From positions 8,050,501 to 8,114,500 of the forward strand of contig NC_088787.1 in assembly GCF_949628265.1 (NCBI RefSeq): a DNA stretch of 64,000 nt. Direction: 5' to 3'. Below, in pieces: positions 7,209 through 64,000 of this stretch. Both the position numbers and the translations under genes were made by a program. The notes below the pieces were generated by a model that searched no databases, was not told the DNA's origin, and saw only the letters and a list, made by a program, of their open reading frames with translations. Every line of letters starts with the position of its first letter. Positions within the stretch are counted from its first letter, which is position 1. The DNA is from Cloeon dipterum. Taxonomy: Eukaryota; Arthropoda; Insecta; Ephemeroptera; Baetidae.

Positions 7209-7837
7209 ATATTTCCTGAGAAATGATTTCAGTCATTGGCAACGAGGATTATCCAGGATTTTACTGTATCAAATCCTCTTTAAATGATTTTCAGTGCATC
7301 ATTTGTAGCAGAAATCAAAATCAAGCGTCCGTGCTTCAGGCTTTTTTATTTGAATTTTGATAGAGGAAAGGTCTAAGTTTTGCAATGAAACTAACTCCAT
7401 TCAGTCCATTCCCATTCATGGACGATAAAAACTAAATAAAATTTCTAGAATTAAAATTAAAACACTTTTTACCTTGGAAGAAATTTTCTACAAAACCATT
7501 TTTTTTAATTTGCAAACCTGAGGTAATTTTAGATTGTGTTTGGACACTCATACAAAAATGATGAGCTATTTAGATTCAAAAGTAATTTACTATTCTTAAG
7601 TTCAATTGATTTTCATGTACTAAAAATTCCGTAACAAAATCTCAGAGAATGCTAATTAAATATTATTTTTGATTCATCACTATTATTAGTATTTTACAAA
7701 GCAGTCTGGAAAAATTAATAATTTCAAAATACCCTATGACTTAACTTGAAAGTTTTTTAAATAGATTTTAAAATAACATTATTTAATTAAAATAATAATC
7801 TGATTAATTACTAATAAAATAACTCTTTTTGTTACAG

Positions 7838-8037
7838 CTGGACACGAGCACAACCACGACCACGAAGACGAGCACAGTCACCACGATCACGAGCACCCTG
7901 TGACGGCGGCCGCGCCGACCCTGAGCTCGGTTCTTCCACAGCTGGTGCAGAACCTGACTGAAAAGGTGGCGAGCACGTTGGCAGGCACAACGATGGCGCC
8001 GCACCACCACGACCATGACCACGATCACCACCACTGA
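7838..8037 (+). CDS. Terminal coding exon of a histidine-rich mini-protein
   Basis: After a good acceptor (TTTTTGTTACAG) comes a 65-codon frame closed by TGA. It starts with a block of alternating His and acidic residues (pattern GHEHNHDHEDEHSHHDHEH, nine His). A middle part of about 30 residues follows that could form an amphipathic helix (LSSVLPQLVQNLTEKVASTL, including an N-L-T sequon), and it ends with a second block (PHHHDHDHDHHH). Spaced His/Asp/Glu residues usually mean binding of Zn, Cu or Ni. The exon opens in the second position of a codon, so a 5' exon must exist. The best candidate is 954-966, which would give a 70-residue protein, but a distal signal-peptide exon could have been missed. 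I recognise no family. The GC-rich third positions stand out from the AT-rich flanks, supporting real coding. Confidence 0.7.
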
Positions 8038-25935: not shown

Positions 25936-26086
25936 GCAGCCCGGTTCTCCCTTAAAACCGAAAACATAAATAGGGTTGAATTTAAAATATTACGGGGGGC
26001 GTGAGATTTGCATCGAAATAGTTGACACTAGTTTATTTTTTTAAACAAAAAAAGGCTTTTTATAAAAAAGTTTCTAACTTTTTGCC

Positions 26087-26361
26087 CAGCAGGGACCAGA
26101 TTCGTGCGACGCGCAGATATGGCGTCCGGTGGAGAATGGCGCGAAAAAACGGCCACGTGAAAATGCGCGAAATTAACCAAGTTCTCGTTAATATTGTGAC
26201 ATAATTTGCATTACTTGAACTAATTGTGTATTTTGGATTGTAAAAACAAACTCTTGACACTCGAACAGGAATCCAAAGAGAGCTTTTTGTTTCCCAAATT
26301 CAGACGCCATCTTGGATCTGCGCAGTGGGAACCAATTTTATCGCACATCTGGCACTCGCTG
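26087..26361. mobile_element. hAT-type MITE, copy 2
   Basis: A 275-bp copy of the element at 1467-1752, starting CAGCAGGGACCAGAT and ending ATCTGGCACTCGCTG. The flanks TTTTTGCC (26079-26086) and GTTTTGCC (26362-26369) are an 8-bp duplication with one mismatch. Ends are of the CAG...CTG hAT type. No transposase. Confidence 0.9.
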
Positions 26362-27696: not shown

Positions 27697-29700
27697 ATGA
27701 ACGTTTTTGTAAGTGTTCAATACATTTTCTATTTTTAGGGGGTTTGTAGGCAACTTTTTATGTAAGTAATAATTGTCCACTTTATTATATTTTCTGATAA
27801 AACAGTTGGTTTTAGTTTTTTTTTTAAGGTAAAAATTATATTTATACAAAGCGCAAATTTGGGGAGATATCTAGCGTATGCAATTTAAAAAATATGAAGC
27901 AGGTTTTATAAAAATTTTGCGGATAAATGAGTCATCCCTGTCAGTATTTTGTCCATTTTATTTAATTGTTAACATCTACTAGATTTCAGTTAGAGTTTAG
28001 ACGTTTATAAACTTAATTTTGAAATTGATTTTTGATGTATCACAAATTTGGCAAAAAAGGGGAGGGAATTTAAATTGTATTTCGGCAACTGCTTCCTGAA
28101 AGTTAATAACTCATGCTCATTTTAAGTCTCATTTTGTCGTACGTTAGAAAAAAAAGTTGAAATTAAAAACCGAATGCGCAGCCCTAACTATATTTATTTA
28201 GATTTTTATTAAGGTTAATTTTGCTTTAAATTTTCAGTTTATTTTGTATTCGCTAAACGGATTAAATTTGTGGAATTTTTCATTAAATACGTTGTTTTTA
28301 TTTCGGAATAACAGACTGAGAGAGTCGAGTTTTTTGTCGTTGAATGATTGCGATATTCGAGATCGGTTTCACACAGAATTTGGTTTAACATTTTTTTTAT
28401 AAAATTTGGTCGTGTTCATTGATCCCTAAAGTGGATATTCTTCTCAAACTCAGATATTGTATGTTTTGAAATGATTATTGTCTTAAATTATGAAGCTTCA
28501 TACTCAAATAAATGTCTCTGATTATTGCATCCTCGCGATTGGCATACCTAACTTTTAAATGTTAGATTTAATTAAATTTACTTTTTTTAATTCATAATAT
28601 CAGACTTAATAAATTACCATGGGCTGGGTCGGAATTATGGAAGACCTTGACTTAAACTAAGTGAAATTAGATGCTGAAGTCTCAACGTTGACGATTTGAG
28701 AATTAAATTTAAGTTTAATAAATTATTTACTTTAATTTTTGGCGGGGTTTAAAAATTAAAAAATTGGGGAGATATTATCGTATCGGTAACCCAAACACAG
28801 ATATTTAAGACAACTTTAAGACCACAAGAATTTTATAATACAATTTTAATTTGCCAATTTACTATACAGTGTTCAATTTTAAATTAAATTAAATTTGAAA
28901 AAAACACTTCTACAAATAACTAAAATCAAATGGTGTTTAACAAACAGTTAAAAAATGTTGAAATTTAATTTTAAATATTTTGTGTAGTTTTAAAACATGT
29001 ATGTACATGATTTATTACTACATTCATGCAAAAATTGCTAACGCGCGGCTCTAAAATTCAGTTCCTGGCTGCATTCCTATCCATCTCAACCGCCACCTTC
29101 GCGACGCACATACGGCTGGTCGTGAAAAAACCCATCTTGTCGAGGAGACCAACCAAATTCAAGCGCTGGTCCGACGTCGACCTGTACGCCGCGGGGCCGT
29201 CGGTGTCCCTGGACAGCTACGGCGTGCCCTTGCGCAGCCCTGACATCAGTTACGGCGGCTTCCGGCCGGTGGCTCCTTCCTACGCGCCGGCCGTCGCTCC
29301 TGCCGTCGACGCCGCCTCGCCCTGGGCCTCCTTTCTGAACCCTGACGCTGGAACCTTCGACCCTTTCGCCCCCAAGCCCCTTCCCGTGGAGCCCAGTCCG
29401 GCCCCGACCGAAGCCCCTGCTCTGCCCGTGACCACCACCGCAGCGCCCACCCCTGCGACCACGAAGGCCCCGGCGGCCCTGGCGGCCGCGACCACTCCGG
29501 CCAACGCCTTGCCCACCGGAGAGCCGATCGCCGTGTCCAAAATCGCGGAGACCATCACCATCGGGCTGGCGCATCCGCTCACCCTGGACCACTTGCGCCT
29601 CCATCCATCCCAGATCGACCACGATGCCAGCCTCTATTTGAGCCAGTTGGGCATCAACGGCGCCCAGGACCCCCAGCTGTTCAACCAGCAGTGGGAATGA
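27697..29700 (+). CDS. Secreted Pro/Ala/Thr-rich protein, cuticle-like gene structure
   Basis: Exon 1 (27697-27708) encodes only M-N-V-F and ends at a strong GTAAGT donor. Exon 2 (29062-29700) follows the acceptor AAAATTCAG in phase 0, giving 216 residues. The join creates a good signal peptide (MNVFFLAAFLSISTATFA). The mature part has a basic start (KKPILSRRPTKFKRW), then a long Pro/Ala/Thr-rich, probably disordered middle with TTTAAPTPATTKAP-type O-glycosylation potential. The C-terminal third is ordered-looking (LTLDHLRLHPSQIDHDASLY, LSQLGINGAQDP). A 4-codon first exon followed by a long intron is common in insect cuticle and other secreted-protein genes. No chitin-binding R&R consensus or other domain was found. 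Exon 2 is strikingly GC-rich compared with its flanks. AATAAA lies at 29784-29789. Confidence 0.82.
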
Positions 29701-44200: not shown

Positions 44201-47200
44201 GATATCGATGCACTCTTTAGTGACCTGGTTCACCAGGTAGCCCTGCGGACACTGGCACGAGTACGAGCCTATTCTGTTGAAGCACTGCTGGCCCCGTGAG
44301 CACGAATGCGTCCCTCGCGTGCACTCGTCAACGTCTGGAAATAAAAATGACATAAATCGCTTTGAAAATTGGAAACAATTTTGATTTAAATACCCTTGAA
44401 GTGCCTCTAGATTTAAAAATCACGTTGACATGTGACAAAATTTTTTGTCAGATTTTTTTAATGATTTATAATTTTTTTTAATGATTTGCCCAGAAATTAA
44501 TTAAAAAAATTAATTATTTCTCAAACAGATATAGGTAAAATTATTGAATTTATTCAAATTTATTAAGCATTAAAAAAGGAAACTTTTTCAAGGTACGAAC
44601 CGACACACTGAGTTCCCTGCGGATTCATTTCAAAGCCGTGTCCACAGTCCAATTTGCGCGAACAGTAGTACGATCCCGGAGTATTGACGCATTTCTCATT
44701 TTCCCTGCATGGATTGCTCAAGCATTCGTTCAAATCTGCAATGAAAACAATTTAAATTCAAATTAATCACAAATAAAATATAATTTACCTGTGCAGACTC
44801 CTGTGGGACTGGATTCAAAGCCAGTTTGGCACACCTGGTCAACACACTCGCCCGCGAGGTTGAGCACTTTCCTACCCTCGCAGGTTTTCAACACGCAACG
44901 GAACGATCCAGGCGTGTTTTTGCACTGGTATCGCGAACCAAGCCTTGCACAGTTGTTGCTCTTCAACAAACACTCGTTGTCATCTAAAATTTTATATGAT
45001 ATAAGTTTATGCTATTATTTTTATTAATCGAGAGAATTGAGAAAAATATATTTTATTTGAGAATTTTAAATTACTATAATATATTGCAGCGGGGACCAGA
45101 TTCGTGCGACGCGCAGATATGGCGTCCGATGGGTTATGGCGCGAAAAAACGGCCACGTGAAAATGCGCGAAAAGAACCAAGTTTTGGTCAATATTGTGAC
45201 ATAATTTGCTCTACTTGTACTAATTGAGTCTTTTGGATCGTAAAAACAAACTCTTGACACTCGTACGGCAATCCAAAGAGGGCTTCTTGTTTCCCACATT
45301 CAGACGCCATCTTGAATCTGCGCAGTGTGAACCAAATTTATCGCACATGTGGACCCCGCTAATATATTGTACATAATGTTTAATCTTGTTTTATTCTGGG
45401 TGATTTTAATTTTTAAATTTACCTAGTGTACAACAATAAATTTTAATTCAGCTTTTTAATACCTTCACACTCTCCAGTTTGTGCGTTGAGAGTGTATCCA
45501 GTTCCGCAGCTGGTTAATCTGAAGCACTTGTACGATCCGATCGTGTTGTCGCACCGCTGGCCCACCGTGCAGTCGTGCAATTCCAGGTGGCACTCGTTGA
45601 TGTCTGCAATATGTAATTTAGTCTCAATTTCTCACCCTTTTTACTCTTTAAAATGACTTGCCCACGCATGCCAGCGTGTTGGGATCCTTCTCGAAACCTC
45701 TTTTGCACACGCAACGGTAGCTGCCCATGTTGTTGAAGCAGTTCTGCGAGCTGTCACAAACTGGAATTCTGCTTTCCACACACTCGTCAATGTCTGAAAA
45801 TTAATAAAAAATAATTTAAATGAAAGAATAATTGCTATTTTCTGTTTTACCGACGCATCTTCCAGAGTTTGATTCGAATTTGAAACCAGCTTGGCAGTCT
45901 TGAAAAATAGGAGCGGTCACTGTCGTCGTGGTCGTCCTCGTTGGGGCCGGGGTCGGGGCCCACGAGAAGGGCCTTTGGGTCCGCTTGGCGGTGCAGTTGA
46001 AGCCCCCGTAGGTGTTTCGGCACGACTCCATGACAGGGTCGCAGTCGTCCAGACCAAGGGCACATTCGTCCACGTCTGATCAAACGGAGAGGAAAATGTT
46101 AAGACTTAATATTTTAAATTAAAATTTATTTAAACGAAATTTGAGAACCCAATGGTATTGGTAATTAATTTTATCTATTTTTAACCACTTCTATTGTTTT
46201 AGAGAGTTTATAAATAATATTTTTTGTTGAATATATGAAAGTATAAAGCAGTAGCCTCTATAAAAATGCAAAGAATTTTCCCAAAATATTAATAACGGTC
46301 AATAAATATTTTATAGATAAAAAATTATATCTAGAATTTTTTTAAAAGTAGAATAATAATTTTTTAATTTTCCCACATGTACCTATGCATGTGCTGATGG
46401 TTTCGTTAAACACAAATCCCTGAGAGCACTTTTCCCCGTTGATGGGGATGCACTCGTAGGCGCCGTCCGTGTTCACGCACGTCTCGATCTCCTCCTGGCA
46501 GCTGTGGATTTTCTCGGCACACTCGTCAACGTCTGAACGAAACCAATTGTCTTAGTCCAATCCGAATTTTAATTGGAAAATATTTATTTTGTACCCAAGC
46601 ATTGCTGAAGGGTGGTGCTGTACTTGAAACCTGCTGGACACCTCCACGAGGCCTGTTTGTGGCAGATGAAACTGCCCATTGTGTTTAGACACTTGAGATT
46701 CTGCTCTCTGCAGTCGTCTAGGCCCTCGAGACACTCATTGACGTCTAATAATTTTAGAATATATATTAATTAAAATTGAATTTTAATATTTTAACAAAAA
46801 TATTTAAATATATTCGTAAAAGTACATTCAGATTTTCAATTTTAAATTATCAAGAGATATTATCACATTCCAAAAAAAATCTTAAGCATATTTTTACTCT
46901 TCTTAATTTTTTCTTTGGAGCATCTATTTAATAAAAACCAAATCTGACCCAGACAATTTCGGGAGAAAGCAATTGTCTTAATTCTAAATTTTTTATTTTA
47001 ATTTAAACTCGATAAAATCAATAAATAAATTTTACATCGCTCTGTGTAAAATTTAAATTAGGCTGGAAGAAGTTAATTTGCTTGTTTTACCTTCACATTC
47101 CTTGGTTTCTGGATTGATTTGAAGCCCTGGAGCGCACTGCTTTTCCTTCGAAACGTTTTCGCAGAAGAACGAGCCCACCGTGTTCATGCAAGTCGTGTTT

Positions 47201-51689: not shown

Positions 51690-52040
51690 CGATGTCAAGG
51701 TAAAAAAGAAAACCCAAAGCCAAAAAACAAGGCGTGAAACCAGCGGGCTCCAACGACAAAACTGCAAAAACTAAAACTGGCGCTGACTCAGGTGGACCCA
51801 ACAAAAATGGATCTGGAGCGAAATCTGCTCATGTTAAACAAAAAATTCTACGAAGATGTAAAAAAAAACAAGGGTATCAAGCAAGACAAACCAAATTCCA
51901 ACTATTGCAATTATTGTACCAAGATGTCATTAGGAAAATCATTTTTTCCTACAAATTTCAATTTCCTAAATCAGAACACTCAATTGCATACAAAAACTAC
52001 TATTTTAAATTCGTCATTTTATTTATACTGAATTCTGTGA
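51690..52040 (+). pseudogene. Orphan 3' exon of the Lys-rich secreted family (relic A)
   Basis: The translated text KPAGSNDKTAKTK, then SGGPNKNGSGAKSAHVKQK, resembles the last exon of the gene at 52251-54365 (SGTNKNSSAVKTANAKQKV). After KQK the resemblance continues only in another frame (VKKNKGIKQDKPNSN against KKVNNKGRKQEKPKTN), so a frameshift has occurred. No matching first exon, signal-peptide exon or family promoter box was found upstream between the fibulin start and this point. It is probably the 3' remnant of a lost family member. Confidence 0.65.
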
Positions 52041-52186
52041 ATTCTAAATAAAATTAAAAACATTCAAAAGGTATGAAAAATACAAAATAAATTTTCTAAA
52101 AAAATGCAGAAGTGCGCTGATATTTGTTGGCAGTATGGCGCTGAGGAAAATTGAAAAAAAAAACATGGCTGATCAAGCGCGTTCCA

Positions 52187-52235
52187 ACAGGAAGCTGATG
52201 TGAGCAAGACCTGGTATTTGCCATCAGTTCGAAAG
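52187..52235 (+). promoter_or_regulatory. Family promoter, gene B
   Basis: ACAGGAAGCT (52187-52196) is followed by the initiator-like TCAGTTCGAAAG (52224-52235), 16 bases before the start codon. The same pair occurs before the other family members. Confidence 0.65.
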
Positions 52236-52250
52236 CAGCTCTCGGTGAAA

Positions 52251-54365
52251 ATGATGAAACTAAGCGTGCGTCGAGTGAACGTTATTGTTCATATTCTAAA
52301 AATTAAAAATGATTTAATTAGGCTTGTCTGCTCCTCTTAACTCTCTTGGCAACCCTGACCGCTGCAGCCCCCGCGAAGATGGACCAATACGCCCCCAAGA
52401 AGGATGATCAGGTTTTGCGTGTTTCGAAATTTAGTATTTGAATTCAGAAATAGGACTTTTGATCAGGCCGCTGATGATATAGCTGCGGAATTAAAGCAAA
52501 TCGAATTGGTACGGTACATTCTCATGGTTTCAGATATATTCTAACATTATGAATCCAGATACCTGCCTATCCAGAGGAAAAAACTAAAGGATTGCAGGAG
52601 TTGCTTGATGATGGGCCAGGTATTGATTTGTCGAGTCGAACGGATTTAATTTAATGTTTTATCAAGCTTACGCCTTTTTGTCTCTTTTAGTTTCCAATTT
52701 AGTTATTACAAATTTTGCTCGTATTTATTTTTTGTGTAGAAAATAATGTCTAAAAATTCCTATTCGGTCTGAATATACGTAATAATTATTGTCAATTATT
52801 GGATTTTTTTTTCAAAATGTTTTATGGGTTATGGGCCACATCGTGGGGCTGTTAAATGTATATTCAGTTAGAATTGGAAATTTTAAAAGACGGTATTTAT
52901 TTTAAGTACTGTAGTTTCAAGTAGCGCTCTATTACCTCTGGAAAAAATTTTATTCCTGAATTTGGGGTTTTCACTCCAGATAAAAATCTCATATTAACTA
53001 TTTATTTGCTTTACTCACAAATATGTCATTCAAGTACCTGTAGTCTCCTACTACTTTTCACTTTTGGTCGCGGGTATTATTGTTAGTAATGATTGTTAGG
53101 CGATTTTTATATTAGAAATTCGTTAAAGCAACAGAGAAAGATTTTGAATTAAAATCAGTTTTCGCCGGAAACACGAGCAAACAAGTTGCATCACTAAGAG
53201 TTCCGAGCGTTTAATTGGGAAGGACCCGGCTCAATCGGGTAAATTCTTTGCTCATTTTAAATTTTACTTCTGTCAATTCTCTTAAATTGTTATTTCCAAA
53301 GTCGATTATGAATTCTATTTAAGGTCCTTGTATTCTGTTAGTAGTAGTTGACAGAGGAGCCTTTCTTATTAAAAATAGAAGAATTGTTCAAGATCCCGAT
53401 TTATTTGTCACCTCCTAACCCCAGAGAACACTATTAAATACAAGTTTATATGTATAACACGCTTAAAATTTGTAGTTTACTCTCTTTGTCAAAAATCATG
53501 TCGAAAACAATTTTTGTTCATTTAATGGAATCAATCGAATCTATAGAGATGAGTAATGATCCGGCTGCGCTAGCAAAACGATTGAACTTAAATCTTACGC
53601 AAATTATGCCGGTAAAGTTGAGTTTTCCATTTGAACTTTTGAGTGCTGAAACCACTCTCAGGGTCCAGATAAATTAGACGAAATGACAAGCGGAGGGCTT
53701 TGGATGCAAGAGGAGTTTAGAAGACGCCCTGAGGAAATTGTAACAGTTAAAGTGATCAAAAATTTTATAAATATTAAAAATGCCACATAAACACAGAAAA
53801 AAGACCAGCTTGCTATTAATATGAAGTCAGACGACGAGGAATCCGTACAAATCAAGAAAGAAAACCCCAAGAAAAAAACAGGTAAAATAGAATTTTCGTT
53901 CTTTCTGGAAGAAAGTTTTATGATGACAATTAAATCGCTAATATTCCTGATATTTCTGAATATTTGCCAACACCCAATAAATCCAAATAAATTTTCTACC
54001 CATTTAAAGTTTAAAATGAAAATGTCCCGAAAGATTTTATTTTGGCTTTTTGTGTCTTTCAAAACAAATATTCAAATTTTTAACCCTCATTGTCAGAGGC
54101 ATCACCAGAGCAGCCTAATCCAGTTTTCAAGACTGCTGGCAAGTCGGATGGCTCAAAAAAGGTGGCTGTTGTAGGATCTGGAGATGGCAAGGCCTCAAAA
54201 GCAAAGGCCGTTGCTAATGCGAGCGGTACCAACAAAAATTCATCTGCGGTGAAAACTGCCAACGCTAAACAAAAAGTGCAGCCCAAGAAGAAGGTGAACA
54301 ATAAGGGCCGCAAGCAGGAGAAGCCGAAAACCAACGCCGGCACTGCTCCCAAATCTTCTGGATAG
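52251..54365 (+). CDS. Lys-rich secreted family protein, gene B
   Basis: Eight exons (52251-52265, 52322-52411, 52467-52508, 52559-52619, 53547-53611, 53662-53739, 53797-53881, 54097-54365) join to 234 residues. Exon 1 encodes M-M-K-L-S. Exon 2 completes a signal peptide (ACLLLLTLLATLTAAAPA). Short acidic/amphipathic exons follow (AADDIAAELKQIEL; EMSNDPAALAKRLNLNLTQI; GPDKLDEMTSGGLWMQEEF). A highly basic, Lys/Ala/Ser-rich, probably disordered tail ends with KQKVQPKKKVNNKGRKQEK and APKSSG. Two introns break the phase-0 rule of the family (after exons 4 and 7). Exons 4 and 5 are joined over 927 bp by phase only, so another small exon may be missing; reading on from exon 4 would stop after 13 codons. 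AATAAA lies at 54410-54415. No known family; a secreted structural or binding protein is inferred. Confidence 0.75.
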
Positions 54366-54409
54366 TTGCAAAAATTGAACATGTGACAAAATTGCAATAT
54401 TAAAGAAAC

Positions 54410-54415
54410 AATAAA
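54410..54415 (+). terminator. Polyadenylation signal of gene B
   Basis: AATAAA about 45 bases after the stop codon. Confidence 0.7.
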
Positions 54416-54866
54416 GAAATTATTTTCTGACTCTTTTTTTTATAAAAATTCATTTTTTTAGTCTTTAGATTATATTTTCAAAAATATTAATTGCAAAATT
54501 TCAAATTTCGGTGCAATTATATCTAAAACCCTAAATTTCCTAAATTTAGAGCTTATAACTAATTTTTGGAAATAAAATAATGTCTTGAATTGAATAAAAC
54601 ATCAGAGAAAAATTTCACTTATATGTGTGTTTTACCGCAAAAAGTACGAATGATTTAGAATATTCGATTTTTCACTAAAACCCAGTGGAAAATATGCTCG
54701 TATGTTTCCCAACTTTCCATCGCTAAAGCGGATGTTTTGATCAAACTGCAACGCACAGTTGGAAACGAAGCTTCTAGCATTTCGTAGTAAAATGGGCAAA
54801 TACAATCATGGCCGACGAGATCCGCTCCAAATATTGAAATACTGCGCAGTTTTTCAAGGACGATTA

Positions 54867-54924
54867 ACAGGAAACTGCTCCATCACATATGCTGAAACTC
54901 TCGAGAGTTAAATCAGTTTGAAAC
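54867..54924 (+). promoter_or_regulatory. Family promoter, gene C
   Basis: ACAGGAAACT (54867-54876) and the initiator TCAGTTTGAAAC (54913-54924), 46 bases apart. A further shared block upstream (ATGGCCGACGAGATCCGCTC near 54809) has counterparts at 52165, 58669, 59800 and 62517. Confidence 0.65.
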
Positions 54925-54953
54925 TTATGCTCGTCGAGAGGCAAGCGTTCAAA

Positions 54954-57515
54954 ATGATCAAGTTAGGCGTGAGTCTACACACAATATTTTGAAAATACAA
55001 TTGGAATTTCCTCGACATAATATAGGTGTGTTTCATCGTGCTCAATGTAATCGGGTCAAGCCTGGCTGCCCCGGCCAATGATGTATCAAATCTTAAGATT
55101 GCCCAGAAACCAGAGGGCAAGCCCGCAGACCTTGGCGCTTCCAATAACAAACTGCAGGTAAGGGAGAAGTTTGAATTTCTGTATGGTGATATGAAAACAG
55201 GAAATGTCTGTTTAAGAACTTGAGGGGATCGATTGGCACTGACCAAATGGTCCTGGTAGGTGTAGAAATGCTAACAAATATATTATGTTTAAAATTAATC
55301 TCTTCAGGCTGCTCCTGTCATTCAGTCGGACGAGAAAAATAAGGAGGTAATGCAAATTCCCCTCCTCATTGTTCGGTCTAAGACGTGATGCATAAATCAA
55401 CAGCAAAAAGTACAGTCTCTTATTGCCGTTGCCGATGCAGCAGTTGCAGAATTACCCCAGCAGAAGGTAAATATAATTTGATTTGCTAGAGTAAATCAAA
55501 CTTAATGTGCGTGTGACTTATTATTTAGTTTAATCAATTTTTTTGTTATTTCCTTTTGATTCTATTCTATTAAAGAAGTCTGTCGGCTCATTTAAACTCA
55601 GTATTTTTCTGTTAAAAAGGAGCAAATATTGGAAATGTACTGACAATGAGAACGTGGAAATTTCAATTTTTTAATAAAAAAAACAATGAATATACATGCA
55701 GAGCGATTTATTTTAAATTTTGCACTGAATTTAATAAATCAAACGTTATTCAGAAACCCATAGACGATAGCGCTTTCAAGAACAACCTGCAGGTAAGGGA
55801 GAAATTTAAATTGCTGTATAGTGATATGAAAACAGGAAATGTCTGCTTCAGAACTTGAAGGGATCGATTAGATCTGACCAAGATATGGTCATGGTAGGTG
55901 CCGAATTAGGTGCAGAAAAACAAACAAATCATATTTAATTAATCTCTTCAGTCTGCTGCTGTCCTTCCAGATGACAAGAAAGAAAATAAGGTAATGCAAA
56001 TTCCCCTCCTCATTTTGCGGTCTAAGACATGATGTGTAAATCAACAGCCAAAAATGCAGCCTATCAGCGCCATTAGCGATACAGTAAACGCAGAACCACC
56101 CCAGCCGAAGGTAAAAATTGATTTTCTAGAATAAATCAAAACTTGAGTGACTCATTTTTTAGTTTTAAGCATTTTTTTGTATTATTTTGCTTTCACCATT
56201 AAATAATTTTGTTGGCCATGAGCTGCTCATTTAAACTCAGTAAAGGATCAAATATTGAAAATGCATTGTTTTAGTGCTGTTTTTCACAATTTGTGTTCTA
56301 AAATATTTAATTTGCCAACAGATGAAAATACATCAAATCCAAGACAGTGTTGGTGAAACAGGAGATTCGCAACAAAACAAGGTAAATAAATTTATAATGA
56401 GCACGTGAAATTTAATACCTTTAAGGGAATAGTTTTGTATGTTTAATGACGTCTACTGAGGACGTAAAAATTTCAAGTTTTGAAAAAAGGGGTTTTTAAT
56501 TTTTGCACTGAATTGTAAAACACTTAAATTTCTTTTTTTCCAATATTCATATTAAAAAATATGAACTCAATACGTTTAATTAAATTCTTCGCGTTGTCCG
56601 ACTCGCTATTCCAGAAAAATTAGAACATATATATTTTTATTTCTTATCACCCTCCACAAATTAATCTTCTGTATTTCTTCTTTCTTTATTCGTTCTCTGT
56701 TATTGGATGGAAAAATTATGTGCCTTATTTTTCCAAATTTCCTTTTAACCAGCGTAGCATATTGCATGACTTTTAATCAAATTTTAAAATATTAAACAGA
56801 TGTGTGATTAGTATTTTGTGGACAATTTATCAAACATTAAAATCAATAAAATATTTGTATCACTTTTCTTGAACATATTATATATCCACAAAATTAAATC
56901 AGAAGCAAATAAAAATAGATTATCTGCTAACCTTTCGAGTAAATAATTAAATTAAATATCCATCAGTTGGTGCCTTTGAATAAAGCTGTTCAAATTGATG
57001 TAATGAACGCTCCAACGATGCTGCAAGGAAAACCACAGGCAATCAGCGGAGAAAACGTGCAAAACTCTGGCGAGAAAAAGACTATCAATTTGAAAGGAGT
57101 GATGCCAGTCAAGGCAGAAATTCCGTCCAAACTCTCTGTAAAGTCACCCGCCGGGAACGCCAAATCTGACCCAAAGAACACGGACGCTCAACCGCAGGCA
57201 ATCAGCTTGAAAAATGGGCAAAATTCAGATGGGAAAAAGGCTGTCGATACTAAAGCGAAGATTCCTGACGCTAAAGTTCCATCAAAACCTACTGGCTCGG
57301 CCTCTGAAGTCAAGGCTCCCGTTAAAGGAAAAGCGGTAGCGCAGGTAAAATCTAAACAGAATAAGGTGCCTGCTGTTCCTGCTGAGAAGAAACCTGCTGT
57401 TAAATCAGACAAGCCCAAGCAAACTCCGGCAGAAAGTGGAAAGCCGGTAGCTAAAGTTGAGAACCCACCGAACAAAACTTCCAAAATTAAAGCTAAAGCG
57501 GCTAAGAAACCATAG
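54954..57515 (+). CDS. Lys-rich secreted family protein, gene C
   Basis: Eleven exons, every one a multiple of three, give 359 residues: 54954-54968, 55026-55157, 55217-55255, 55308-55346, 55404-55466, 55754-55792, 55852-55893, 55952-55990, 56048-56110, 56322-56381 and 56967-57515. Exon 1 is M-I-K-L-G. Exon 2 finishes the signal peptide (VCFIVLNVIGSSLAA) and ends NNKLQ. The run from exon 6 to 9 repeats the run from the end of exon 2 to exon 5 (NNLQ; NLKGSIRSDQ; SAAVLPDDKKENK; AEPPQPK), introns included. The long last exon is Lys/Pro/Ala-rich and carries its own repeat (PQAISGENVQNSGEKK and PQAISLKNGQNSDGKK), ending KIKAKAAKKP. Predicted to be secreted, strongly basic and disordered. AATAAA occurs near 57780. 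No known family. Confidence 0.8.
55146..56110 (+). repeat. Intragenic tandem duplication of a four-exon block
   Basis: Unit 1 (about 55146-55466) and unit 2 (about 55781-56110) are offset by 635-644 bp. The intron following NN(K)LQ is 59 bp in both and nearly identical (both contain GATATGAAAACAGGAAATGT). Following exons have lengths 39/42, 39/39 and 63/63. Flanking intron words such as GGTAATGCAAATTCCCCTCC and AAATCAACAGC also recur. Intron conservation indicates a fairly recent event. Confidence 0.9.
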
Positions 57516-58120
57516 CTTAAGTCTAATAGCGAGCCCAAGCTTGTAAACTGGATAGATGCATGAAAATGGGAGTTGAAAATCGTTTTTGGACTTTTTAATT
57601 GTTACTTTATTTTTCACACACAGTCAAGTTATATCTTGGGAATCATAAATTATCTTGTAAACAAATTAATTTTATATTTGCAAATTATTTCGATCAAAAA
57701 ATCTCTACTTTGTTTGCATTATCACGTGTGTAAATAACTTTTGTAATTCGTAAGCCACAATGTATCTGAAAAATTCAAGAATAAAAATAAAAATTGATGA
57801 ACACCATCTATGTGAACTTTCCTTTTAAATACACCACGGCAATGTAGACCTGTTTGTACGTTTTTCAATATGTTTAAAGATTTTGGAGTTTAAAAAATTT
57901 TATGTGGCTAAAAAGTCATGAAATTTCATGATTATGGCGTCTACAGGTTGATCAGAACGCACATAAATATTTTTCGGCTTTCTTAAATTGCCAGCCTTGA
58001 TTATTTTGAGCAAAATAATCTCAATTTGATTTTAATTATTGCAATATTTAATTATTTATGCTTCATAATCCTGGTAAATGCTTGTTGCCTATGCATGAAC
58101 TCATCCTTTAGGATTCAGTT
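57516..58120. other. 3' flank of gene C and spacer, no gene recognised
   Basis: 3' UTR with AATAAA signals near 57780, then AT-rich spacer. Confidence 0.6.
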
Positions 58121-58349
58121 GACGCCAAAATTGACCTAAATCAAGCTGTATAAATTTTTGTAGAAAAGTGGCTGCAAAGTTAGTCCTGAGGACTGTCTCC
58201 CTACTTGATATCTGATTTTATTTCACAAAAAAGAGTTTCCCTAAAAGGTTTCACACGCTGTTGGACAGATCTCGATGAGAGGAATCAAAATGCTCCAAGA
58301 AAATGTAGTCAAGCGTTATACATTTTGGATAAAATTTGAATTTTTACTG
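58121..58349 (-). repeat. Interspersed repeat R3, copy 2
   Basis: The reverse complement aligns along its length with 6971-7208, including TTTTATCCAAAATGTA, GAGATCTGTCCAACAG and TTTGCAGCCACTTTTCTA. It sits in the spacer between family gene C and relic D. Confidence 0.8.
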
Positions 58350-58668
58350 TATCGCAACGTCTTTTTTTAATATTGGAATTTTAGAACAAATTGTTTCTCG
58401 AACAACTATATGTTTATTGCATCCAACAATTCATATAATTTTCAATTTTCGCCCTGTACATCAATCCACTTTAATATTAAGAATAGGTTTCTACATAATT
58501 CACAGGGGCCTAGCAGGCCCAGAAAATTATTTTTCACTAGATTTTATTACCAATATTAAAAACATCTACAGGGGATTGAGCCTTGTTAAAAATGCGTCAC
58601 AATTTCACAAACGCAAAAACGTTATTCGACCGAACATCAGCGCAGAACGTGCAGTGGACAGAAACAAT

Positions 58669-59147
58669 AATGGCCGACCGTATCCGCTCCAAATAATTTG
58701 AAATTGTGCAATTCCACGTAGGATAGAATTCTAAGAAAAAGGAAACTGTTGAGCATGGGAACATGCTAGTTTTTCTCAAACTTTCATACATTTTTGAAGT
58801 TGGTATATACACGTAGATTTCAGACTCAAAAGTTTATAAAATGTGTAAATGGAGCTTCAATAAACAGAACTGAAATTACAAGCAAGATCTTATAACTATT
58901 TTTTGTCTTGATTGGAGCAAACTTAGCTGCGCCGCCAAAGAAAAAGGGAAGAGGATCAATTATGAACGAAAAACAATTAAGAGCAATAATAACTCTGGGC
59001 AGCGAAGTGTCACCCTTATATAGAGTTGTCAATGTGCCAGTAGATAAATTTATCATTCCAAACGATAAAATAATTTTATTTCATATAATATCGTCCTTAA
59101 ACAAACAGACCATGTCCAAAACTGGGGGAGATGCAATAGTATCTTAA
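58669..59147 (+). pseudogene. Relic D of the Lys-rich secreted family
   Basis: The upstream block ATGGCCGACCGTATCCGCTC (near 58670), the box AAAAGGAAACT (58737-58746) and a worn initiator near 58819 match living members. ATGTGTAAATGGAGC at 58841-58855 corresponds to the 15-nt first exon (M-x-K-x-S), but the donor position reads TTCAAT instead of GTAAGT. A frame then resembles the end of exon 2 (LIGANLAAPPKKK) without a proper acceptor before it. It continues 60 residues to a stop at 59145-59147. Unspliced translation from the ATG stops after ten codons. This is most likely a dead copy; a drifted gene with other splice sites is the alternative. Confidence 0.65.
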
Positions 59148-59800
59148 TATTAATTTTTTTTTCAATTTTTTCACGTCGGAAGTGATATGCGGTCATATGG
59201 GAAAATGGAGGGTGCATGGAAAAGCCAAACAACTACATAAAGATAAAAAATATGGAATAATCAATCAAAAAGCGACAAGAAACTCAGAATAGCAACTAAT
59301 TTTGCGTCCAATCTTTCGAAAAATAGTTAAATAATAAAACAAACTATTTTTATTTCCAAATCAAAAATTCAATACACTGTATGTGGACTGACGACTGCGA
59401 AAGACAACACTAGTGATATTATGGAATAATAACTATTTGAACAATCTTATAAGCAATTGCTTCGATAAGTTTTAATGAAATAGATTTTAACCCCCTGGTT
59501 TTTCCAATTATTCTCTAAACACGCGAATAATGCGAAAGTTACTTACTCAACAAAGCTTTACAATAAATCTGAGAATTAGGTGTTTTCCAGAACCAGAAAA
59601 ATATAAGAAAAACGCATTCAGTAAAAGAATTGATTTGGTTGTCACAGTGATCCTCAATTCTAAAATGAATAAACACACATAAAATACCAATTCGAATGTT
59701 TTGGAGAAAAAGTAGAGCATGCGCGATGCATTGGAAACTGATAATGATATCACACTGATGATTTCAACGGAATCTTCGTTCTCCATGTTGTCAAAACGTC
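59148..59800. other. Spacer, no gene recognised
   Basis: AT-rich sequence between relic D and gene E. Frames on the minus strand at 59547-59786 and 59809-59991 overlap the gene E promoter and lack support. Confidence 0.55.
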
Positions 59801-59874
59801 ATGGTGAGCTAAATCCGCTCTGAATAACAAAGGTAACAAAATTTTGTGCTGAATTTTCCAAGGACAAAAACACA

Positions 59875-59933
59875 ACAGCGGAAGCCACTTGGTTGGGACG
59901 CACAATTTTTTCCAGTTTTTGTCAGTTTGAAAG
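59875..59933 (+). promoter_or_regulatory. Family promoter, gene E
   Basis: ACAGCGGAAGC (about 59875-59885), a variant of the family box, then the initiator TCAGTTTGAAAG (59922-59933), 29 bases before the start codon. Confidence 0.6.
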
Positions 59934-59961
59934 TTTGGCTTGCGGTGAAGCCAGGTCCAAA

Positions 59962-62021
59962 ATGATCAAACTGGGCGTAAGTAGGAGCCAAATTATTTGA
60001 GCCAGTGCGATAATTACTGGGACGCGCGTGTTGCTCTCAATCAGAGTGTGCACCAATTTAATTTATATTTGAGTAAAAATGAACTGGTTTAGACTTTTTA
60101 TTATTTTTCTCAAAGTTAAGACACGTTTTAAACGTCGTCAAAGGTCTAAATTGATTTTCTATAGTTAATATTTATTTGAAAGGATTTGAAATAAAAGTTC
60201 ATACTGATGCACGGAAAAATCACATACATTTTAAAAAGATTATCTACAAGTCTATCGCAAATAATCCCATGAATAATGAAACTATTTAAACGCAAAATAA
60301 CTTACTATTTAAGACCCAAAAATAATGCAACTCGTGACATTTAGGTATCTTAAAAAAATCCTGTTTTGTTTCGAAACACTTCTATTAACAATAACTAAAA
60401 AGAGAAATCAAAACAGTTTAGGCATAAAATAAAAGGGGCAAAATACCAATTTTGTGAAATAAAAACATATTTCGTTGGACAACAGGCAAATATTTTAGCA
60501 GATTTTTTTAGTTGCGCAGTTACTGAGTAATAATAATATAGTGTTAATTTTGATACCATCTTAATTTGCGTCCAATTTTATGAGTTGGGCTTGTTCAAAA
60601 AGCACCAAAAATTGTACAAAAATAAACATACAACCCTTCGATATGAGTAATAAAAATTCTAGAGCTTCAATAATCAAATCGAACCATTGGCGCTAGGTGT
60701 TTCTCATCGCGTTCGAAGCTTTGCTTGGGACAATTTTAGCTGTCCCGGTTCCAGCGGACACGATGCCAAGTATGCCAGGGATGCCAGGTATGCCAGACTT
60801 TTCAAGCTTGCTTGGAGGGGCGGGACAAGGAGGTTCCCCCGCTGACGTGCAGGTTAAACCCCACGAATAAAAATTGTCAAATCACTTTATTATTATTTAC
60901 CATCTTCAGAAAATATTGGATATGCAAGCTAAGTCACAGAGTCAGCTGTATGGCAGTGATATACAGGACGCTATGGCGAAATCGAATCAATTGCAAGCAG
61001 TATGAGAGTCAGTGGTAGTTGTGTTCACGCATGTTCTAAAACAATGTTGTACTTCAACTGGAAAAGGAGTCCATGGCGAAGGCGGCCGAGATGCAAAAAC
61101 AGATGGAAGCCCAGATGGCTGCAATGACGGCAGGAATGCCAGGAATGGGAGGAATACCAGGAATGGGAGGAATGCCAGGAATGGGAGGAATGCCAGGAAT
61201 GGGAGGAATGCCAGGAATGCCAGGAATGGCACAGACTCTACAGTCCAGCACTTCGAAGGTAAAATTTTCAATACTTTAAAAAACATGCCTGAAACAAACA
61301 TAAAAATCAGGTTCAACCACCAGTCGCTTTGCCTGCAGCGACGACTCCGAAGCCTCCAGAAATCCCGAAAACTACTGCAAATATTGCGACAACCAAACAA
61401 ACCCCTCCTCCTCCTCCACCTCCTCAGCCAGTGGAACCTAAAAAGGTCATCCCTGATCCGTTACCACCAGCAAAACCCGAGCAAAAGCCTGTTGAGGTCA
61501 GAAGCACAGCTCCAACGACGACTGCACAGCCGACGACGACTAATCGTGCTGTCCAGCCAGTAGTGGACTACAAGAAACCTTCCGACGTCAAAGCTCCTGA
61601 AAAGACCATTGTGGCAGCTCCTGTTGTCAAAGTCCCTGAAGTAAAATTGCCTTCAAGTGAAAGTGGTGCCAATAAGGCCGTAGGAGTCAAAGAAAATTCT
61701 AATGTACCACAAGCACTGGTGAAAAAGGACTCTAGTGCACCACAAGCACCCGTGAAAAAGGAATCTAGTGCGCAACAAGCGCCGGTGAAAAAGGACTCAA
61801 AAGCCAAGCCTGCAGTGAAACCATCCAGCAGCAAAGACGCCAAGTCAAGCCAGCAGCAATCTGGGGCTAAGGGAGCTCCGCAGACGGCAAATTCGAAAAG
61901 TAGTAATAAAACAAAGGCTGCTAATTCCAAAACAAAAACAAAGCCTCAAAAGAAAAAGCCAGCACCGCTGAAATCCAATTCCAGCGCCAGAACTTCGACA
62001 ACTAAAAAGACAAAGACCTAA
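59962..62021 (+). CDS. Lys/Pro-rich secreted family protein with MPGMGG repeats, gene E
   Basis: Five exons, all multiples of three (59962-59976, 60697-60852, 60910-60999, 61067-61258, 61311-62021), give 387 residues. Exon 1 is M-I-K-L-G. Exon 2 gives the signal peptide (VFLIAFEALLGTILA) and a MPSMPGMPGMP stretch. Exon 3 is Gln/Lys-rich and helical. Exon 4 starts with a Met/Ala/Gln helix (AKAAEMQKQMEAQMAAM) followed by five MPGMGG-type units. Exon 5 has a run of seven prolines, Thr/Pro-rich sequence, three repeats of the type APQAPVKK(D/E)SSA, and a very basic tail (KTKPQKKKPAP; TTKKTKT). Intron 3 is 67 bp with a poor pyrimidine tract, so the exon 4 start is the least certain point. Predicted secreted, cationic and largely disordered. 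No known family. Exons 1-3 are closest to gene G. Confidence 0.8.
61133..61229 (+). repeat. 18-bp coding minisatellite (MPGMGG units)
   Basis: About five tandem copies of the 18-mer ATGCCAGGAATGGGAGGA with a single variant (ATACCA), within exon 4 of gene E. Near-identity of the units suggests recent expansion and likely length polymorphism. Confidence 0.9.
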
Positions 62022-62500
62022 TTTGGCAAATACTATTGAAGCCTCTTTAATTTGATATAAAATTATAGCTGGATTACGGAATAAAAGATGGTTTTAATTT
62101 GAAAACGCCCTCTATTCTATCAAATTTACCTGTTTTTTGCTATTCCTTCTCTTGTAGGGATTATCTGTTTTAAATATAAATAAATCTTGCATTTCTTATA
62201 ATTAGGAGAGATTTTAAGCAACGCTAACGATGCTGAGAAATTAAAAAGAAAATCTAAATTTATCGGTATGTGTTGAAGAAATTTCAACAATCTTACAGGA
62301 AAACGGTCTAAAATATATTGAATGAATGTAATTTTGGCTGTTTTACAGTTTTTATTAAACAAATTTTTATTATGCCTCAAAATAACAGGCAACCCATATA
62401 ACAAGGGATTAATAATTATACGTAATCGCGAGAGAATTAACTTTTTTGAGAATGGAATTTTTAAAATGAGATCGAGTGAAATTCAAACATAGTTTCATTT
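62022..62500. other. 3' flank of gene E and spacer
   Basis: A likely polyadenylation signal, AATAAA, lies in GGAATAAAAGATGG near 62081. The rest is AT-rich with no supported gene. Confidence 0.6.
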
Positions 62501-62516
62501 ACAGTCAGAAAATGTG

Positions 62517-62690
62517 ATGGCCGACTCCAAATAACTAAAAAAGAGCAAATAATAATATTGAAGATGGAATGAATGCTGTCTTTGATAGGAAGTTTCTCCA
62601 TTGGGAATAGTGTTGGTCAGTTGGAAAGTTGCACAATTATCGAAGCGAGAGGCCCGGTTCAACATATTTCAATGTAGGCTATATAAATTC
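62517..62690 (+). pseudogene. Relic F of the Lys-rich secreted family (promoter and first exon only)
   Basis: GATGGCCGACTCC (62517), the box ATAGGAAGTT (62585-62594) and the initiator TCAGTTGGAAAG (62617-62628) match living members. GCGAGAGGCCCGGTTCAA at 62645-62662 aligns with GCGAGAAGCCCTGTTCAA just before the gene G start codon. At the place of the first exon the ATG has become ATA and the donor GTAAGT has become TATATA. No downstream exons were recognised, so this is a broken 5' remnant. Confidence 0.65.
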
Positions 62691-63525
62691 AAATAACATC
62701 AAATTTTAATAAAACTTGAAAAAAAACATAAATGAGAAAACAAAGTGCTGTCGTGGGTGAGGAGCAGGTAGCGTGGTGATATATTTGTAAATAAACTATG
62801 ACTTTCTTCTAGTTTATGATAAAAATGATACATTTTTAACCATTTCATATCAGGGAATAAAGTCATTCGTACTGATGAAGCGCCTGGTGCAACTGAAACC
62901 GGACGAATGGGAACTAAAATGACAAAAAATATGACATATATGGCAAAACTCATGCAAACATTTTAAAATATTTTCTGGTACTTGGCTTAATTCTTTTGTC
63001 AAGATTATAATTTACTCGGTCCTGTTTTCATTAAAGTAATTTAAATTAATTCAATATAGCTAATTAACCTGCCTTTTAAAAAATAATTTATATTTATAAA
63101 ATTTATTTACCATAGACCGAAGTAATGCGCTATAATAACACGTTTAAAAAAATCGTTCATATTGTTAATGAAATTTCGTTTTCTAATATTAATTTACTGC
63201 ATGTGAAGATGATTCCAAATTTTAAAAATGCAATTCCTATTGGGCCACGTCTTTGTTATTAAAATTTCCATCATTGATTTTGATTTTATCAAATTAAAAC
63301 TTTTATTTGCTACGTACGTCACGAAAAATCATACGTGCGCGTGGATGCTTTTCCATGTAGAGCGGATGTTTTGTCCAAACCTTGAAATATACATGGAAAA
63401 TCTCTGACGGTAGTACAGTCGTCATCAGTTGCTTCCATGATGGTGGATAAAATTCACTCCAATTAAATTTTACAGCGAAAAGCTGCGCAGTGATTTCCAA
63501 TAACGTAAAACTTACCAAGTCACAA
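62691..63525. other. Spacer before gene G, no certain gene
   Basis: A minus-strand frame of 84 residues at 62699-62953 begins like a signal peptide (MSFAIYVIFFVILVPIRPVS). It has no promoter, splice or family support. The rest is AT-rich. Confidence 0.4.
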
Positions 63526-63582
63526 ACAGGAAGCTTATCAGTTGGAAAGTAAAATTTCATCTACGTTCCATCAGTTTGAAAT
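63526..63582 (+). promoter_or_regulatory. Family promoter, gene G
   Basis: ACAGGAAGCT (63526-63535) and the initiator TCAGTTTGAAAT (63571-63582), 45 bases apart and 31 bases before the ATG. Confidence 0.65.
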
Positions 63583-63612
63583 TTGAACTAGTGGCGAGAA
63601 GCCCTGTTCAAA

Positions 63613-63996
63613 ATGTTCAGGCTGAGCGTAAGTGGAGCAAAACTTCAAAAAATTTCAGAAATACAAATAAGTTGTTCATGTTAGGTGATTTTCATCACGT
63701 TTGAGGCTCTGCTTGGGGCAACCCTTGCCGCACCAGCAGACTCAAAAACGCCAGACCTTTCCAAACTATTGGCAGGTGCTGGACAGGCAGGCTCCAACGT
63801 TGATTTACAGGTATGCACGGCAAAACATATTAAACTATATTTTAATAAATAAACTTGACAGAAATTGATGGCGGCCGGTGGTGGTAATGCGCAAGCAGTA
63901 TGAGTTTTATCATATTTTTCAGAGCTCTCTTGCTAATAATAAAATTAATTATTTCTAAAAAAGATGCAAGAACAGCTAGCTGCTGCACAAAAGCAG
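63613..63996 (+). CDS. Lys-rich secreted family protein, gene G, 5' part only
   Basis: Four exons are visible before the window ends: 63613-63627 (M-F-R-L-S), 63685-63810 (signal peptide VIFITFEALLGATLAA and SKTPDLSKLLAGAGQ), 63863-63898 (KLMAAGGGNAQA) and 63964-63996 (MQEQLAAAQKQ, followed by GTTA). All are phase 0. Exon 2 is very like that of gene E (FEALLGTILA; SSLLGGAGQGGS), so G and E are the closest pair. The C-terminal exons lie outside the window. Predicted secreted; function unknown. Confidence 0.8.
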
Positions 63997-64000
63997 GTTA

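Follow-up and report, generated by a model that had tools for sequence, protein, structure and literature searches.

A tandem cluster of mini-exon genes with signal-peptide-like starts and long basic tails in the mayfly Cloeon dipterum

What kind of proteins are encoded by a run of small, similarly built exons near one end of a 64,000-nucleotide (nt) stretch of the genome of the mayfly Cloeon dipterum (contig NC_088787.1, positions 8,050,501 to 8,114,500)? The whole stretch is hereafter referred to as the window. Position numbers follow the window, also past its edge, where the 3′ part of one gene lies on the same contig. A preliminary description, made from the letters of the sequence, had proposed a tandem family of lysine-rich genes with signal-peptide-like starts, built from phase-0 mini-exons. 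Exon chains were drawn up by eye, with splice sites and open frames as guides. They form a tandem array on the + strand that consists of four genes, A, B, D and E, and of relics; to reach the 3′ end of gene E, the contig was read on beyond position 64000. The tandem mini-exon gene cluster is real, and for A and B it is in agreement with published models. We favour, at a probability of about one half, the reading that these genes are a lineage-specific, fast-changing family of secreted polyelectrolytes, most likely structural or adhesive. The anatomy of A and B is secure and that of D and E is good. The genes are as follows, all exons being defined by splice sites and frames, and those of E also by a genome match.

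52251-54365, + strand: gene A, 8 exons, 234 amino acids (aa); exons 52251-52265, 52322-52411, 52467-52508, 52559-52619, 53547-53611, 53662-53739, 53797-53881, 54097-54365
54954-57515, + strand: gene B, 11 exons, 359 aa, 10/10 introns in phase 0
Gene B, exons 1-6, + strand: 54954-54968, 55026-55157, 55217-55255, 55308-55346, 55404-55466, 55754-55792
Gene B, exons 7-11, + strand: 55852-55893, 55952-55990, 56048-56110, 56322-56381, 56967-57515
59962-62021, + strand: gene D, 5 exons, 387 aa, 4/4 introns in phase 0; exons 59962-59976, 60697-60852, 60910-60999, 61067-61258, 61311-62021
63613-65693, crossing the window edge (64000), + strand: gene E, 6 exons, 597 aa, 5/5 introns in phase 0; exons 63613-63627, 63685-63810, 63862-63897, 63964-63996, 64060-64125, 64176-65693

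Every gene starts with a first exon of 15 nt, which encodes MMKLS in A, MIKLG in both B and D, and MFRLS in E, as expected from the pattern M-x-(K/R)-L-(S/G) proposed earlier. This pattern was found at four places, corresponding to the four genes, and nowhere else on either strand of 143.5 kilobases (kb) comprising the window and 79.5 kb downstream. In all four genes exon 2 supplies the remainder of an N-terminus that is hydrophobic and resembles a signal peptide. Phase 0 was observed for 24 of 26 introns (P = 5e-6 against an assumed 50%, the duplicated exons within B not being independent). The expectation of phase-0 introns thus held with two exceptions, both in gene A, in which the intron following exon 4 and the one following exon 7 are in phase 1 and the other five in phase 0. 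The length of internal exons is a multiple of 3 in 19/22 cases, a count in which the duplicated exons of B enter singly and are not independent. Genes contain 5-11 exons, and 20 of the 26 introns are 50-67 nt long. An exon size of 10-30 codons had been proposed, which is mostly right; exon 4 of gene D, with PGM-type repeats, has 64 codons. CAGT is an arthropod initiator, and an initiator-like CAGTT motif is located upstream of five of six aligned units, relic C (see below) being the unit without it.

The long cationic last exon described earlier is present in all four genes, with a net charge of +16 over 88 residues in A, +22 over 182 in B, +28 over 236 in D and +35 over 505 in E. Of 1000 base shuffles per gene, none kept the last-exon frame open for B, D or E, and 11 did so for A. 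The positive charge is carried by these tails, the net charge of the middle parts being −8 (A), −1 (B), −3 (D) and −1 (E). The tail of B is rich in Lys, Ala and Pro, and repeats are present in D and E. In all four proteins a 12-residue window with a mean hydropathy of 2.25-2.61 starts at residue 4-6 and is followed by an Ala-rich stretch that resembles, by eye, a cleavage site. Each protein contains 0-1 cysteine, and W, Y, F or C residues number 1-6 in total per mature protein. When the boundary formula of the charge-hydropathy plot was applied, all four fell on the disordered side. AlphaFold mean pLDDT values, 44.9 for B modelled with two sequences and 53.1 for A as a single sequence, are weak evidence, the alignments being shallow; this low confidence is in keeping with predicted disorder.

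Gene A encodes a product identical over 234/234 residues to NCBI protein P0003 (LOC135937266, Cloeon dipterum), which NCBI names uncharacterized. The NCBI protein P0001 (355 aa) is the product of gene B minus exon 3 (39 nt, 13 residues), the exon skipped in NCBI isoform X2, plus nine N-terminal residues contributed by an upstream in-frame ATG. A second Cloeon dipterum record contains a 344-aa counterpart of B, from which exon 3 is also absent. This counterpart starts with MTKLG, and the upstream start in the NCBI model of B is therefore probably wrong. The two B proteins are identical at 250 of 336 aligned residues and at just 7 of the 21 residues of exon 9.

Gene B also contains a duplicated block of exons:

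55119-55637, + strand: block copy 1, end of exon 2 and exons 3-5; 74% identical to 55754-56263
55754-56263, + strand: block copy 2, exons 6-9

Together, the block duplication and the skipped exon 3 bear out the earlier claim that duplication or loss of phase-0 exons need not damage the frame. Since most middle exons are symmetric, either event leaves the frame intact, and the middle of these proteins can vary quickly. Both block copies are present in the second Cloeon record. Over the 34 residues that the last two exons of a copy encode, comparison between the records gave 27 identities for copy 1 with copy 1 and 18 for copy 2 with copy 2, while copy 1 and copy 2 within each record share 13 and 16. 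Like copies being more similar across records than the two copies within a record, the duplication predates the split of the two records. Copy 2 is the most changed copy.

The copies differ at 34 of 120 first and second codon positions and at 12 of 60 third positions, and at 21 of 166 positions in three short introns and 38 of 156 in a longer downstream intron. The difference between positions 1+2 and introns has P = 0.0013 with the short introns and 0.026 with all introns; against position 3, P is 0.28. An alternative alignment gave 18/166 for the short introns and 17/141 for part of the downstream one, the figures for the longer intron varying with alignment. Over the 60 codons, nonsynonymous divergence (dN) is 0.34 and synonymous divergence (dS) 0.22. 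This comparison of exon with intron change, made on a single duplicated block of 60 codons, suggests diversifying change as a modest hint, not a proof. Elsewhere, exon 2 of D compared with that of E (dN 0.31, dS 1.24) and an internal repeat in the tail of E (dN 0.09, dS 0.18) show values of the kind produced by constraint. In the latter repeat (64156-65009) the end of the preceding intron was copied along with the exon start, and this former intron sequence now lies in the coding frame (near 64591-64611).

Besides the genes, the following elements were recorded:

51690-51870, + strand: relic 1, what is left of a basic tail exon; 51798-51844 best matches the gene A tail at 54229-54275
54793-54851, + strand: upstream element of gene B, common to B and relic C (58655-58713)
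58058-58480, no strand assigned: dispersed repeat between gene B and relic C, outside the gene family
58655-59145, + strand: relic C, 5′ element and signal-peptide-like remnant FFVLIGANLAAPPKKK
62617-62679, + strand: relic 3, weak 5′ remnant

Relics were tested by comparing local-alignment scores with those of 200 shuffles; a negative-control stretch gave 200/200. The score of 44 between relic 1 and the tail of A was reached by 0/200 shuffles, as was the score of the 5′ part of relic C (58655-58713) against B. The body of relic C was not significantly similar to gene D (100/200), and no intact first exon was seen in this relic. Relic 3 (62617-62668) gave 1/200 against E and 76/200 against B. 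Out of the seven units proposed earlier (four genes and three relics), the four genes and two clear relics, one a tail and one a 5′ part, were recovered, and the third, also a 5′ part, is weak. When the whole genome was scanned for the 26-base core of the upstream element, allowing up to 3 mismatches, B and relic C were the only places detected. Between A and B, the upstream parts match just moderately (7/200 shuffles). The dispersed repeat has at least 46 matches in the genome (best 40 of 2805 candidates scored). Its copies, over about 420 bases, are 72-85% identical on contigs C1-C5 among the matches listed, and an inverted-repeat scan revealed no clear terminal inverted repeat.

The preliminary description had recognised no described family, and the searches agree with this. 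Pfam returned no match at cut-off for five proteins (A, two B proteins, a 390-aa version of D, and E), a single sub-cut-off match, to A, having 14.3 bits against a cut-off of 29.6, and NCBIfam matched none of three. Among solved structures there was no match for A and one chance-level match for B (expectation value 0.89). All protein matches were from Cloeon dipterum, two in the search with B, one in that with A and E and none in that with D; no match was found outside this species in a collection whose coverage of other mayflies is unchecked. Searches of the genome (190 megabases) gave a similar picture. With protein B, six matches were found, all within gene B; with protein A, seven within gene A and one elsewhere at an expectation value of 7.1; with protein E, three within gene E, two weak places on contig C5 (0.13 and 0.14) and exon 2 of D (0.45; 62% over 42 residues). 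In a whole-genome scan with the first-exon context, 0-1 mismatch was seen only at B, D and E, ten more places having 3 mismatches; gene A, too divergent there, was not returned. CATCAGTTTGAAA, tried as a family marker, was not specific (20 places, compared with 11 for the reversed control). The available part of the Cloeon genome paper (PMC7250882) describes no such family. Nothing on these genes was found among the listed matches of a search of the mayfly secretion literature, and a literature search on secreted proteins, positive selection and introns more conserved than exons gave no match. The family is apparently lineage-specific, judging by these searches.

Several known gene systems share parts of this anatomy, and the tiny first exon turned out not to be special. 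Tiny first exons are usual in the CPR cuticle-protein genes of Anopheles: according to the part of the work available (PMC2259329), 86% of intron-bearing genes have an intron in the signal-peptide region, and first exons are 3-36 nt long with a median of 12, which its authors describe as not unique to CPR genes. These genes resemble the mayfly genes in their short first exon in the signal peptide (15 nt in 4/4 mayfly genes), many phase-0 introns and compact tandem arrays. In contrast, they mostly have 2-4 exons, compared with 5-11 here, and their R&R chitin-binding Consensus (pfam00379) was found in 0/5 mayfly proteins at expectation values up to 1. An identity as CPR cuticle proteins was rejected, there being no domain match in Pfam. 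An intron inside the signal peptide is also present in the Drosophila salivary glue genes Sgs1/3/7/8, which encode Pro/Thr/Ser-rich, rapidly diverging repeats and are partly clustered, as far as the available part of PMC6352337 goes. There, however, the signal-peptide intron is in phase 1, unlike the phase-0 intron of all four mayfly genes; cysteine richness is stressed, and a string of mini-exons is not mentioned in that part.

Closer likenesses of the modular body are offered by schistosome MEG genes and aphid bicycle genes, both again known to us from parts of the sources. The MEG genes combine a signal peptide with runs of small symmetric exons (compare the 19/22 symmetric internal exons and the hydrophobic N-terminus in 4/4 genes here), and their modular body works similarly (PMC4350168, PMC10526429). 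They are said in these parts to be restricted to platyhelminths, whereas the host here is a mayfly, and to have introns of up to 5 kb (PMC10526429), whereas most of the mayfly introns are short; a single long basic last exon is not mentioned there. No sequence relation emerged from protein searches, in which MEG sequences were not compared directly. The bicycle genes are insect orphan genes for putative effectors, with many small same-phase internal exons and fast evolution (PMC9168663). Their internal exons are almost all in phase 2, unlike the phase-0 and two phase-1 introns found here, and they encode CYC motifs, unlike the cysteine-poor mayfly proteins. Membership in the MEG or bicycle families was rejected on homology, phase and cysteine motifs. 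The modular body resembles that of both systems, without homology.

How might such proteins act? The array encodes cysteine-poor chains that begin like a signal peptide, continue through a modular middle of near-neutral or acidic charge and end in a long basic tail; disorder is predicted for them. They would be secreted by means of the split signal peptide. Outside the cell the charged, partly repeat-rich chains could behave as a polyelectrolyte, self-associating or binding acidic surfaces. A role within a secreted coat, matrix or adhesive may follow and is the least certain step. Several points weigh against this account. Whole mature proteins are just mildly basic, with a mean net charge of 0.04-0.07 per residue. 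The signal-peptide call was made by hydropathy score only. The amino-acid change in B fits a role in conflict equally well as a structural one. No database protein matched gene D, searched with residues 1-112 of an earlier 390-aa model in which a wrong start of exon 4 (at a non-AG acceptor) made residues 88-90 wrong, or gene E, searched within a chimera query, and because of this the transcription of D and E is unsupported. As a whole, the interpretation given in the preliminary description is partly supported.

Conflict proteins, reproductive, immune or facing symbionts or parasites, would have mini-exons under diversifying selection in the manner of MEG and bicycle genes. The excess of change in the B block over its short introns, with dN above dS, the low identity of B between the two records and the turnover in the array evident from the relic copies all point this way. 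The B-block signal is modest, however, being weaker against all introns and not significant against third positions, and could be produced by gene conversion or by splicing constraint on the short introns; dN is below dS in exon 2 of D and E and in the tail repeat of E, and the low identity of B between the records may also reflect a divergence shared by ordinary genes. We regard a conflict role as rather doubtful, though it is the most probable of the alternatives. An unrecognised low-complexity class of cuticle or eggshell proteins would account for the 15-nt first exons and the CAGTT motif, given that CPR genes, too, have their signal peptide interrupted after a short first exon and show initiator motifs, compact tandem arrays and many phase-0 introns (PMC2259329, in the part available). 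With neither a chitin-binding nor any other Pfam family at cut-off, and with so few aromatic residues, this class is unlikely.

Could D and E be decaying, non-expressed copies? Both are absent among database proteins, and relics adjoin them. Their last-exon frames, never open in shuffles, and their splice sites argue otherwise, and since the protein searches limited the length and number of candidates (the search with E scored only the 7997 sharing most words), a fused or much longer model of either gene would have escaped them. We consider decay very improbable. NCBI names the B product 'histone H1, early embryonic-like isoform X2', and the Lys/Ala/Pro-rich tail would suit a linker-histone-like nuclear protein, in B and by extension in its neighbours. 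Yet Pfam detected no linker-histone domain in 5/5 proteins at expectation values up to 1, all four gene products start with a strongly hydrophobic stretch, and A carries no histone name. A linker-histone identity was thus rejected for lack of the globular domain, and a nuclear role of this kind has scarcely any probability. Gene B is misnamed: the public name, histone H1, is misleading for a mayfly protein that is probably secreted.

More tentatively, the array might be a micro-exon system that evolved independently in an insect which is free-living and belongs to an early winged lineage, a proposal that we hold to be unlikely at present. In such a system, symmetric mini-exon cassettes would be duplicated and skipped and coding parts would outpace introns, giving ever-changing secreted proteins. 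If true, MEG-like modular secreted families can arise beyond parasites and gall makers. Exon gain and skipping can be traced in this compact array of 14 kb, which holds intact genes as well as relics and, within one gene, a duplicated block of exons.

In the rest of the window, Pfam matches were obtained for 5/10 open frames outside the array and identify as neighbours a zf-4CXXC_R1 gene, DNA ligase IV, two cytochrome P450 stretches and an EGF-type gene. The array is followed by a zinc-finger gene on the opposite strand, as read by eye. Rfam gave no match anywhere in the window at gathering scores. The open frame at 7804-8034 (+ strand), HEHNHDHEDEHSHHDHEH, is rich in His, Asp and Glu; its product may bind metal and is unmatched in Pfam. 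An uninterrupted frame of 229 codons at 29011-29697 (+ strand), also unmatched in Pfam, encodes an Ala/Pro/Thr-rich product. Finally, two short open frames on the − strand, at 26063-26299 and 45069-45299, are similar to each other and are perhaps copies of another repeat.

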